A stretch of DNA of 64,000 nt from Leifsonia sp. C5G2 (GTDB lineage Bacteria; Actinomycetota; Actinomycetes; Actinomycetales; Microbacteriaceae): positions 1 through 64,000 of the forward strand of contig NZ_JABFMV010000014.1 in NCBI RefSeq assembly GCF_013359685.1. Reading direction: 5' to 3'. Below are positions 8,553 to 56,561 of this stretch, in pieces. The notes under the pieces were generated by a model. That model was not told where the DNA came from. It saw only the letters and a list, made by a program, of their open reading frames with translations, and made no database searches. The position numbers and the translations under genes are program-made. Every line of letters starts with the position of its first letter. The stretch's first letter is position 1.

Positions 8553-8619
8553 CGCCGCCATTCGTCACGAATGGGCGCTCTTCGTGACGAATGGGCGCGA
8601 TTCGTGACGAGTGGCGGCG
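8553..8619. repeat. Family B intergenic palindrome, copy 1
   Basis: Left arm 8553-8572 and right arm 8600-8619 pair over 20 positions with one G-T wobble. The loop contains the core GCGCTCTTCGTGACGAAT (8575-8592), which recurs exactly at 37108-37125 inside different arms. Lies between convergent genes, so a terminator role is possible, but there is no T-tract. Confidence 0.75.
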
Positions 8620-14372: not shown

Positions 14373-14438
14373 CCGTCGAGTCCGCGAAGACTGCACGGCC
14401 ACGCGGCGTGTCGCGTGCACTCTTCGCGGACTCGACGG
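14373..14438. repeat. Family A intergenic palindrome, copy 1
   Basis: Perfect 18-bp inverted repeat: CCGTCGAGTCCGCGAAGA (14373-14390) and its complement (14421-14438). One C-C mismatch follows, then a 6-bp inner stem TGCACG/CGTGCA. The loop carries the core GCGGCGTGTCGC (14403-14414). Sits between two plus-strand genes with no T-tract after it. Confidence 0.85.
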
Positions 14439-30229: not shown

Positions 30230-33208
30230 ATGACGACGCCGTCCGAGGCGCTGCGCCTGAACGGGCTCGACGCGCTGTTCCACGGTCACCCCGACGGCGT
30301 GTGCGTCGTCGATCCCTCCGGTCGCTTCCTCGAATCCAACCGGGCGATGGTCGCGCTCATCGGCTACTCGGCCGAGCAGCTCACGGGGATGGAGTTCAGC
30401 CGCCTGCTGCATCCCGACTCGGTCGACTACACCATGGCGCAGTTCCGCGAGGCGCTCGCCGGTCGCAACCGCCGCTACGTGACCAGGATCGTCACACCGG
30501 ATGACGTCGTGCGGCTGCTCGACGTGACGATCATCCCGTTGCGCGGCGAGGACGGCGAGGTGGCTGCGGTGCTGGCGATCGCGCGCGACATCGGGGACGT
30601 GGAGCGCGCCGCCACCGCGGCCGCGGGCAACGAGGCGCTGGTGCGCATGGCCGCCAGGATGGCCGGCTTCGCAGGCTGGGTCGTCGACATCCCGACCGGG
30701 CGGATCGAGTGGAGCGAGGACCTGTACCGGCTGCTCGGGATGGAGCCGGGCCGCGTGCCGAGCGACGCCGAGTCGCTCGCCCTGTTCGAGCCGGACGACA
30801 GGAAGGCCGTGCGGGAGGCGTTCCAGCGCAGCGTGCTCGACGGCGTCCCCCTCGACGTGCGGGCGACCATGGTCGACGCCGCGGGGCGCCGCATCCACGC
30901 GCACCTGGTCGGCGAGACCGAGCGGGACGAGAACGGCGACGTGGTGCGCCTGCACGGCGCGTTCCACGACGTGACCGCGCTGGTGCAGCACCGGGAGGAG
31001 CAGCGCGCGATGGCGCGCCTGCTACGGAGCTCGCTCGACCAGGTGCACGACGCGATCGGCTTCGTCGACCGCAGCTGGCGCTTCACCTTCGCGAACTCCT
31101 GGGCTCTCCGGCTGGCGGGCCTCGACGAGTCGAGGCTGCGCGAGAAGACGATCTGGGAGCACTTCCCCACCGCGCTCGGCAGCCCGTTCGAACGCCTCTA
31201 CCGCGACGCCATGGAGCGCGGCCGCAACGGAAGCGCCCGCGCCTTCTCGCCGGAATGGGGCCGCTGGTTCGAGGTCGACGTGCACCCGACGGAGGAGGGC
31301 ATCGCGATCATGGTGCGCGACGTGACCGAGGACCAGGAGGCCCGCACGAAGCTCGACCAGTACACCCGGCGGGTGGAGGCGCAGGCCGCCCTTCTCGACG
31401 CCGCGCGCGACGCCATCCTGGTGCGCGATCTCGACGGGGTCATCCGCTACTGGAACCGCGGAGCGGAGGCGACCTACGGCTTCGCCGCCGCCGAGGCGGT
31501 CGGCCGGTCCGTCCGAGACCTGCTCTACGACGAGCCGGAGCAGTTCGACCGGGCGATGGAGGCCCTGCTGCGGGACGGGTTCTGGGTCGGCGAGCTGCGG
31601 CAGCGGCGGGCGGACGGGTCCGTCCTGATCGCCGACTGCCGCTGGCAGCTGACCCGCGGCGAGGACGGCCAGGTGAGCGTCTTCGCCGTCAACTCCGACA
31701 TCACCGAGCACCGCAGGCAGGAGGAGCAGCGCATCCGGGCGCAGCGGATGGAGAGCCTCGGCACGCTCGCCGGGGGCATCGCGCACGACCTCAACAACGT
31801 GCTCACGCCCATCCTGATGGCGGTGCAGCACCTGCGCGACGACGAACCGGACCCGCGCAGGCGCGCGACGCTGGACGCTGTCGAGTCGGCGGCGGAGCGC
31901 GGGGCGGGCATGATCCGTCAGGTGCTGTCGTTCGCGCGCGGAGCGGAGGTGCGGCACTCCGCCGTCGACCTCGCCGGCCTGCTGCGCGAGGTGGGCCGGT
32001 TCTGCGGCGAGACGCTCCCGCGGTCGATCGAGTTGGTCGTGGACACGCCGACCTGCCTCCCCGCGGTGTCGGGCGACGAGACGGAGCTCTTCCAGGTGCT
32101 GGTGAACCTGGCGACCAACGCACGCGACGCGATGCCGGACGGAGGGAGGCTGCTGATCGCGGCCGCCGCCGGCGAGGGGACGGTGCGCGTCGAGGTGCGC
32201 GACACCGGGGCCGGGATGGACGCTGCGACGGCCGGCCGCATCCTGGAGCCGTTCTTCACCACCAAGGAGACCGGTACGGGGCTCGGGCTCGCGACCTCCG
32301 CCGCGATCGTGAAGGCGCACGGCGGGGAGCTGAGGGTCGACACCGCGCCCGGCGGGGGGACGGCCGTCTCGTTCGTGCTGCCGGCGATCGAGGAGGTCGC
32401 GCCGCCTGCAGCGCCGGCGCCGGGCCCGACGACGGGTCCGTCCGGCATCGTGCCGCGGCCCGGGGCCGGCCGGCGCGTGCTCGTGGTGGACGACGAGCCC
32501 GCGATCGGCGAGCTGGTGCGGCAGACCCTCGACAGGAACGGCTTCGTCACCGAGGTCGCCCAGGGCAGGGATGCGCTCGACCTGATCGCGAGCGGGCGCC
32601 GCTTCGACGCCGTGCTCACGGACGTGATGATGCCGGGGGTGTCCGGGGATGCGATCGCGCGCGTGCTGGCGGCGGAGCATCCGGAGACCGCCGTCGTGCT
32701 GATGAGCGGGATGCTGCCGGGCCCGGGGACGCGCGAGGCGGTCGCGCGCGACGGCGCCCTGTTCCTGGCGAAGCCGTTCACGCCGGCGGCGCTGCTGGCG
32801 ACCCTGGAGGCCGCGTTCGCCGGTCGCGGGACGGACGGGTCCGTCTCCGCGGCGGACGCGACCGCGGACCCGGAACCGCTGCTCGAGGAGGTGATCGCCC
32901 CGGCCCTGCGGGAGGCGGCGGCTTCCCTGTCGGCCCATCCTCCGGCACCCGCGGAGACCGCACGGCTGGCCGAGATGCTGTCCGCCGCGGCGGAGCGCGC
33001 CCAGCGCGCGCTGGGCGACCGGGCGGCCGACCCGCGCGCCCACCGGATCGTCGGTGCGGCGGCCTCCGGGGCGATGGCTCTGACGCTCGGCGCGGGGACG
33101 GTACCGGTCGCGGACATCGTCCAGCGGCTGGAGGAGGGCCTCGGGCTCATGGCGGCGGGGTCCTGGCCACCCGAAGACCAGGACCCCGCCGATGAGGTGC
33201 CGCGCTGA
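30230..33208 (+). CDS. Multi-PAS hybrid histidine kinase with receiver domain
   Basis: 992-aa soluble sensor kinase; no membrane segments. Layout: PAS 1 (about 13-130, GHPDGVCVVDPSGRFLESN), PAS 2 (about 140-260), PAS 3 (about 265-370, AIGFVDRSWRFTFANSW), PAS 4 (about 385-500, AILVRDLDGVIRYWNRGAEATYGF), then HisKA with His519 in GTLAGGIAHDLNNVLTPI, HATPase (about 600-720, VLVNLATNARDAM and GTGLGLATSAAIVKAHGG), and a C-terminal receiver with Asp798 in LTDVMMPG. The last about 120 residues are helical and unassigned. Probably senses redox, light or small ligands in the cytoplasm. Output partner may be the divergent LuxR regulator. Confidence 0.9.
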   Translation: MTTPSEALRLNGLDALFHGHPDGVCVVDPSGRFLESNRAMVALIGYSAEQLTGMEFSRLLHPDSVDYTMAQFREALAGRNRRYVTRIVTPDDVVRLLDVTIIPLRGEDGEVAAVLAIARDIGDVERAATAAAGNEALVRMAARMAGFAGWVVDIPTGRIEWSEDLYRLLGMEPGRVPSDAESLALFEPDDRKAVREAFQRSVLDGVPLDVRATMVDAAGRRIHAHLVGETERDENGDVVRLHGAFHDVTALVQHREEQRAMARLLRSSLDQVHDAIGFVDRSWRFTFANSWALRLAGLDESRLREKTIWEHFPTALGSPFERLYRDAMERGRNGSARAFSPEWGRWFEVDVHPTEEGIAIMVRDVTEDQEARTKLDQYTRRVEAQAALLDAARDAILVRDLDGVIRYWNRGAEATYGFAAAEAVGRSVRDLLYDEPEQFDRAMEALLRDGFWVGELRQRRADGSVLIADCRWQLTRGEDGQVSVFAVNSDITEHRRQEEQRIRAQRMESLGTLAGGIAHDLNNVLTPILMAVQHLRDDEPDPRRRATLDAVESAAERGAGMIRQVLSFARGAEVRHSAVDLAGLLREVGRFCGETLPRSIELVVDTPTCLPAVSGDETELFQVLVNLATNARDAMPDGGRLLIAAAAGEGTVRVEVRDTGAGMDAATAGRILEPFFTTKETGTGLGLATSAAIVKAHGGELRVDTAPGGGTAVSFVLPAIEEVAPPAAPAPGPTTGPSGIVPRPGAGRRVLVVDDEPAIGELVRQTLDRNGFVTEVAQGRDALDLIASGRRFDAVLTDVMMPGVSGDAIARVLAAEHPETAVVLMSGMLPGPGTREAVARDGALFLAKPFTPAALLATLEAAFAGRGTDGSVSAADATADPEPLLEEVIAPALREAAASLSAHPPAPAETARLAEMLSAAAERAQRALGDRAADPRAHRIVGAAASGAMALTLGAGTVPVADIVQRLEEGLGLMAAGSWPPEDQDPADEVPR

Positions 33209-40673: not shown

Positions 40674-40739
40674 CCGCTGAGGTTCTCGCAGATGCGGTCG
40701 ACACGCCGTGAGCGTGCGCAACTGCGAGAACCTCAGCGG
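40674..40739. repeat. Family A intergenic palindrome, copy 2 (reverse orientation)
   Basis: Perfect 18-bp inverted repeat: CCGCTGAGGTTCTCGCAG (40674-40691) and its complement (40722-40739). An A-A mismatch and a 4-bp inner stem TGCG/CGCA follow. The core CGACACGCCGT (40699-40709) reads ACGGCGTGTCG on the minus strand, so this copy is flipped relative to copies 1, 3 and 4. It lies between two divergent genes, which argues against a terminator. Confidence 0.85.
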
Positions 40740-48463: not shown

Positions 48464-48521
48464 CTGGTTGACGCAACACGCCGTGGCCGCGCCGCCGGGG
48501 ACGGCGTGTCGCGTCAACCAG
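48464..48521. repeat. Family A intergenic palindrome, copy 3
   Basis: CTGGTTGACGC (48464-48474) pairs perfectly with GCGTCAACCAG (48511-48521). An A-C mismatch and a 9-bp inner stem ACACGCCGT/ACGGCGTGT follow. The core ACGGCGTGTCGC (48501-48512) partly forms that inner stem. Lies between convergent genes. Confidence 0.8.
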
Positions 48522-56495: not shown

Positions 56496-56561
56496 CCGTC
56501 AGCTCCTGAGTTGTTCGTCCTTTCGCGCGGCGTGTCGCTCGAAGAACTCAGGAGCTGACGG
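56496..56561. repeat. Family A intergenic palindrome, copy 4
   Basis: CCGTCAGCTCCTGAGTT (56496-56512) pairs perfectly with its complement (56545-56561). A G-G mismatch and a 4-bp inner stem TTCG/CGAA follow. The loop holds GCGGCGTGTCGC (56527-56538), identical to copy 1 although the arms are unrelated. It follows the gadC stop and may also end that transcript. Confidence 0.85.

Follow-up and report, generated by a model that had tools for sequence, protein, structure and literature searches.

Intergenic hairpins of Leifsonia and related actinobacteria share a constant core and carry family- and lineage-specific arms

Why should four intergenic palindromes in one stretch of a Leifsonia genome share a ten-base core (CGGCGTGTCG) when their arms look unrelated to one another? 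The window, by which we mean the whole 64,000-nucleotide stretch that was analysed, holds one member each of four arm families that recur across the genome, and it is this sampling that made the arms look unrelated. The four palindromes belong to a large class of hairpins that keep one core while each family and lineage has arms of its own.

Four palindromes and the arm families they sample

All four palindromes are present, with the core of element 2 on the minus strand (S1 to S4b denote the arm families given below):

Element 1, 14373..14438, plus strand: family S2; arms 14373-14397 and 14414-14438 (25 bases each), spacer 14398-14403, core 14404-14413.
Element 2, 40674..40739, minus strand: family S3; arms 40674-40696 and 40717-40739, core 40699-40708 on the minus strand.
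Element 3, 48464..48521, unstranded: family S4b; half-sites 48474-48483 (minus strand; the plus strand reads CAACACGCCG) and 48502-48511 (plus strand, CGGCGTGTCG), an 18-base middle between the half-sites, outer arms CTGGTTGACG/CGTCAACCAG.
Element 4, 56496..56561, plus strand: family S1; arms 56496-56517 and 56540-56561, core 56528-56537.

Folding elements 1-4 returns outer stems of 18, 18, 11 and 17 bp, each followed by one mismatch and an inner stem, as the sequence-only reading had described (z-scores of -8.05, -8.65, -4.91 and -7.77). Scanning the 64 kb for hairpins yields six strong ones, these four among them, against 0, 0, 0, 0 and 1 in five first-order Markov shuffles. The core is tied to the palindromes, with all four exact copies of CGGCGTGTCG in the window lying inside elements 1-4; matches with up to one mismatch show no excess (28 versus a chance mean of 38). 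The idea of a single design for all four gives way at element 3, which has its core in the stem, opposite CAACACGCCG 18 bases off. A single mismatched pair is likewise a property of the four window elements and not of the class: among the 76 elements whose loop contains the core, mismatches number from 0 to 6 (13, 12, 17, 20, 6, 3 and 5 elements, respectively).

The genome of the window (G000) contains 153 exact copies of the core, compared with 27 of a reversed control. We read 98 of the 153 sites one by one, and 70 carry one of five recurring arm types:

S1, CCRTCAGCTCCTGAGTTSTTCGA: 25 sites, including element 4.
S2, CCGTCGAGTCCGCGAAGACTGCACG: 10 sites, including element 1.
S3, CGCTGAGGTGCTCGCAGTTGC: 11 sites, including element 2.
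S4a, ATCCATGGGACGC: 12 sites, counted per half-site.
S4b, CCTGGTTGACGC: 12 sites, counted per half-site, including element 3.

Two of these arm-type labels fall inside genes, with poor hairpins, and are probably chance. Arms that recur as families within one genome are not unrelated between copies, and simple duplication, which had been thought incapable of producing the elements, can therefore explain most of them. The same reading had staked its constant-core model on two points, that equal arms should not turn up at different loci and that the core should not be common outside palindromes. On the former it did not hold, as arms do recur at other loci; on the latter it stood, core sites outside hairpins being near background (28 of the 98 are without an arm label, 16 of them in called genes).

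Families S1-S3 have a single core in a loop of limited length (16-23 bases), placed beside the 3' arm after 6-10 variable bases (76 elements from two species). S1 and S2 arms also occur around coreless loops. GACTGCGG and AACGTCTGCGG are the basis of another hairpin family, found at G000 C1:70470 and C22:105981 and at their orthologues in a related genome, G024. Of the 100 G000 core sites listed, six are about 110 bases or less from the end of a contig (C10, C15, C17, C18 and C24); hairpins of this kind thus probably break assemblies and are undercounted.

Distribution across genera and position relative to genes

Searching named genomes with the S1 pattern finds only Leifsonia virtsii, at nine places. 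The abundance of the 11-mer CGGCGTGTCGC across 28 genomes of the genus ranges from background level up to 97 copies, and in 199 genomes of the family several genera lie far above a reversed control (for example, 90+104 versus 18+8) while many others do not. Across 248 genomes of the order, 19 have the inverted core pair, CGACACGCCG-N16-20-CGGCGTGTCG, and these belong to 11 of 86 genera and to seven families (the control hits one genome); with a relaxed pattern the pair is present in 17 of the 28 genus genomes (control 0). When sequence was fetched without a spacing filter, allowing 5-40 bases, 55 of 57 pairs still had a half-site spacing of 16-20. Each copy is a long hairpin whose ten-base core is either single in the loop (S1-S3) or an inverted pair (S4 and other genera).

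The outer arms of the paired-core elements vary by lineage and recur inside a genome. One genome (G123) has GGATCAGGACG and GCGGATCCGC, another genus has GAATTCAGG, and all 11 elements of G402 and G230 have a CGCTGTGGGTGCA arm, with up to two differences on the left arm. The middle between the half-sites is unlike in all 20 copies from distant genomes; in G432, two copies have a common middle. A constant core with changeable arms, as first proposed, is therefore correct between genera and families but not among copies of one genome, where arm families recur.

Several loci show other arrangements. Locus L349 (G167, another genus) has S1-like arms, AACTCAGGAG and CTCCGGAGTT, but a paired core and the opposite arm polarity. 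Hairpin arrays with GGAGGACATCC arms and interspersed GACACGCCG cores lie at L142 2960-3800 and L139 2970-3310 (G006 and G007). From C1:3912001 onward in G021 (L164, about 584-1260), five S3-like cored elements form a tandem array with a period of about 160-165 bases.

Most elements lie at the ends of genes, and gaps between convergent genes are strongly over-represented among their sites. Genes were called with our own codon-usage script, not taken from annotation. In the window, elements 1 and 4 start 7 and 4 bases past a stop codon, respectively; elements 3 and 4 are flanked by convergent genes, element 1 by co-oriented genes and element 2 by divergent genes. Several stems extend to both stop regions. 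The 70 labelled G000 sites comprise 34 convergent, 22 co-oriented (core on the gene strand in 12, opposite in 10) and 5 divergent settings, 5 that are unclear (sequence ends) and 4 in called genes. Across two species, the 76 S1-S3 elements divide into 43 convergent, 15 + 7 co-oriented, 4 divergent, 6 in called genes and 1 unclear. The convergent share, 43 of 69 elements with orthologues in the two species counted twice, compares with 62 of 389 gaps of at least 60 bases (p about 1e-14). In distant genomes, 20 elements give 10 convergent, 4 divergent and 4 co-oriented settings, and 2 in called genes.

Turnover of sites and maintenance of stem and core

To follow individual sites, we set 427 kb of G000 beside the orthologous 416 kb of the sister species G024; intergenic hairpins of every kind number 42 in the former and 43 in the latter. 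Of these, 29 in G000 were assigned to S1-S4, partly by eye, and site states were counted by eye. At the G024 site, 13 of the 29 have the same family, 5 have another family and 6 have no hairpin (one with a remnant); a further 2 lie across long gaps and 3 align only partly. The swaps from G000 to G024 run from S1 to S2 twice, from S1 to S4 once and from S3 to a form B (GAGTTGCACGTCGTGGCGGCTAT, whose arms resemble those of S3) twice; at least a third S3/B pair is seen in the reverse comparison, among the output listed. Loci C1:1754 and C1:20341 were classed by eye in this comparison as S1 and S3. Flanks at the compared sites are mostly 90-97% identical, and about 95% identical around empty or swapped sites. 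By eye, the six empty sites have imprecise junctions, and no target duplication was noticed.

Across the compared sequence, five S3 copies and one degenerate B occur in G000, whereas G024 has eight B and no S3; these true copies were picked by eye from 34 S3 and 32 B matches, the rest being chance. The change thus looks concerted within species. The window elements illustrate the range of outcomes: element 1 has a G024 orthologue with a compensated stem change; the element 2 site is occupied by a coreless B form in G024, by a third arm version with core in G021 and G019, and by another sequence in G009; element 3 has a relative with an altered core at the orthologous place in G024; and the element 4 site in G024 has no hairpin. 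Correction of arms and replacement of families could both be explained by template switching between arms.

Other hairpins also lie in the window. At 8553-8619, between convergent genes, is a coreless hairpin on ATTCGTSACGAAT, whose G024 site is nearly clean and empty; this motif occurs in tandem copies in G022 (L179). At 190-252 is a degenerate B-form hairpin, the sole B copy seen in the 427 kb of G000. A 14-bp hairpin at 33153-33191 is inside a called coding region, and a hairpin is also present at the orthologous positions of G024, G021, G019 and G010.

Stems and core are maintained through this turnover. Thirty orthologous hairpin pairs (629 stem pairs), a set that includes other hairpin kinds, contain five double changes that keep Watson-Crick pairing, where independence predicts 0.36; core-family elements account for three of the five, element 1 included. 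The left arm of S1 fits its own right arm better than those of other copies (0 of 5,000 permutations), and the same test is not significant for S2 (277/5,000) or S3 (1,477/5,000); shared ancestry inflates tests of this kind. In six orthologous core elements drawn from the contiguous comparison, 3 of 60 core bases have changed compared with 8 of 36 bases of the six-base spacer (p 0.018). In the paired-core elements (95 copies), the two ends of the middle show more pairing than chance predicts at depths 3, 4 and 7 and weakly so at depths 1 and 2, but not at 5 or 6.

Folding of a transcribed strand would predict tolerance of G-U pairs on it. Over the 76 elements, G-T and A-C mismatches number 43 and 37 (21 and 23 in convergent settings), without asymmetry, and so give no overall sign of a single RNA strand. 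A strand asymmetry seen with fixed-length arms (G-T 26 versus A-C 7 for S1 and S2 together; 6 versus 8 for S3) was withdrawn after this consensus-free count. Co-oriented settings show a bias with the gene strand, 20 versus 7 (p 0.019), or 17 versus 7 (p 0.064) minus one orthologue, which is a hint only, the split by context having been chosen after the data were seen. No U-run follows the stems at the flanks of the four window elements, our terminator pattern scan is blind to these elements (it admits loops of 3-8 only), and Rfam gives no match at gathering score within the window.

Known repeat systems and competing explanations

Several known systems resemble these hairpins in part. REPINs and BIMEs with RAYT enzymes are paired inverted units, lineage-specific in sequence and dispersed within a genome. 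Our elements have all three properties in common with them, but their conserved part is a core near the loop, not an end tag, and the Y1_Tnp gene is absent (28 + 9 genomes). MITEs are small, non-coding, bounded by inverted repeats and present or absent between relatives, again as here; unlike in MITEs, the middle is not common to copies, no target duplication was noticed by eye, and no parent insertion sequence was found in the two gene-bearing intervals between nearby elements that we read. Intrinsic terminators place a stable hairpin close past a stop codon, a feature held in common, whereas the elements have a large loop, form repeated families and have no U-run.

The closest published comparison is with tagged REPs. 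As described by Di Nocera et al. (PMC3733652), GTAG- and CGTC-tagged REPs lie near the 3' ends of convergent or co-oriented genes, in several families per genome, with stems of 5-13 bp (GTAG) and 8-9 bp (CGTC); the CGTC type has no known transposase and its copying is left open. A word search of that paper finds no naming of Actinobacteria, Leifsonia or Clavibacter. Short dispersed palindromes in families, 3'-end placement and turnover are common to both, and on this account the CGTC type is equally without a transposase. The differences are stems of roughly 15-35 bp, loops of 16-23 bases with a conserved core, a RAYT domain that was not found, and the absence, by eye in aligned elements, of an unpaired GTAG or CGTC end tag; CGTC does occur inside S1 and S2 arms, but paired, and the S3 and S4 arm ends are without it. 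The elements are thus REP-like in position and turnover, yet not members of the tagged superfamilies. A survey of stem-loop families in 40 bacterial genomes (PMC2267715) likewise describes systematic stem-loop repeats; its available passages list Corynebacterium and Mycobacterium and do not name Leifsonia, Clavibacter or Streptomyces. Among the listed papers on REP and other palindromic repeats in Microbacteriaceae and relatives, judged by title and the start of the abstract and including few subscription papers, no description of these elements was found. As plain strings, CGGCGTGTCG and CGACACGCCG turn up in 13 and 19 published papers, respectively; where passages with CGGCGTGTCG were checked it belongs to primers, the other papers being judged by title.

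How do copies spread? One proposal had been that the arms derive from a host target, copied by a process akin to that of REPs or retrons. We find nothing in its favour: the arms are themselves repeats shared among copies, and the enzyme search, made for the RAYT-type domain Y1_Tnp (PF01797), is empty in all 28 genus genomes and in nine core-rich relatives (control genomes positive 5/14). The companion proposal, a structured RNA class whose stem is free to change, fits better given the compensatory changes and gene-end placement, although these do not prove action as RNA. A DUF222 nuclease (PF02720), tried as a driver, is present in 1 of the 28 genus genomes and was rejected. Plasmids give no match to elements 1, 2 or 4, phage records none to element 4 (the sole element searched there), and one viral contig carries an exact paired core.

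One rival reading is that of miniature transposons with the arms as terminal repeats, moved by RAYT or another standard transposase. Dispersal, variable abundance, empty sites and tandem arrays are what such transposons would leave, but with Y1_Tnp at 0/28 and 0/9, DUF222 at 1/28, ordinary-looking genes in two intervals between nearby elements (by eye, with no domain search) and no target duplication noticed by eye, we consider them very improbable. A different kind of explanation makes the hairpin a by-product of symmetry, the elements being double-stranded DNA sites for a dimeric protein, such as a supercoiling or nucleoid factor at convergent gene ends, an idea already put forward for some REPs. 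Half-sites at a fixed spacing of 16-20, around a middle different in all 20 copies, fit this, as do convergent placement and a core better kept than its spacer; arms that stay complementary within a copy, needless for a double-stranded site, the single core of S1-S3 and loop ends that pair beyond chance at several depths make it improbable. The elements might instead be host-owned bidirectional terminators or insulators and no mobile element at all: selection would maintain a hairpin where convergent genes meet, and now and then gene conversion or a template switch from arm to arm would pass family sequences on. Placement just past stop codons and between convergent genes, stems that reach both stop regions, compensated stems and the lack of a transposase in the RAYT and DUF222 searches all agree with this. 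Set against them are empty sites and family swaps between species within flanks that are about 95% identical, tandem arrays, the missing U-run and the 5 of 70 labelled sites between divergent genes, and we judge it rather unlikely.

The reading that we favour, with moderate conviction, makes the elements an untagged class of REP-like palindromes, dispersed outside genes in Microbacteriaceae and some other families of the order, that would act as RNA and spread without RAYT. Under it, each hairpin would work as RNA at the 3' end of one flanking transcript or of both, either like a terminator or by protecting the end; a conserved trans-acting factor may make its constant contact with the core, the arms mainly having to pair; and copies would spread and replace each other by a route other than RAYT transposition. 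Against an RNA and copying reading stand the copying enzyme that was not found, the absent U-run, the balance of G-T and A-C, the own-arm test that falls short of significance for S2 and S3, and the divergent setting of some elements, element 2 among them. More tentative is the broader proposal that these are order-wide mobile hairpins without RAYT, the core, single or as an inverted pair 16-20 bases apart, being the fixed recognition site of a conserved factor and the arms exchangeable modules, with whole families taking each other's place at set chromosomal sites in sister species.

For the biology of these bacteria, the four palindromes open onto a large actinobacterial class, in which the RAYT domain was not found, where the core is constant, stems differ by lineage and families swap at one site. 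In these genomes, a hairpin may look conserved without having a function specific to its locus. The natural separation of core and stem offers material for asking what part of a repeat is recognised and how repeats spread.
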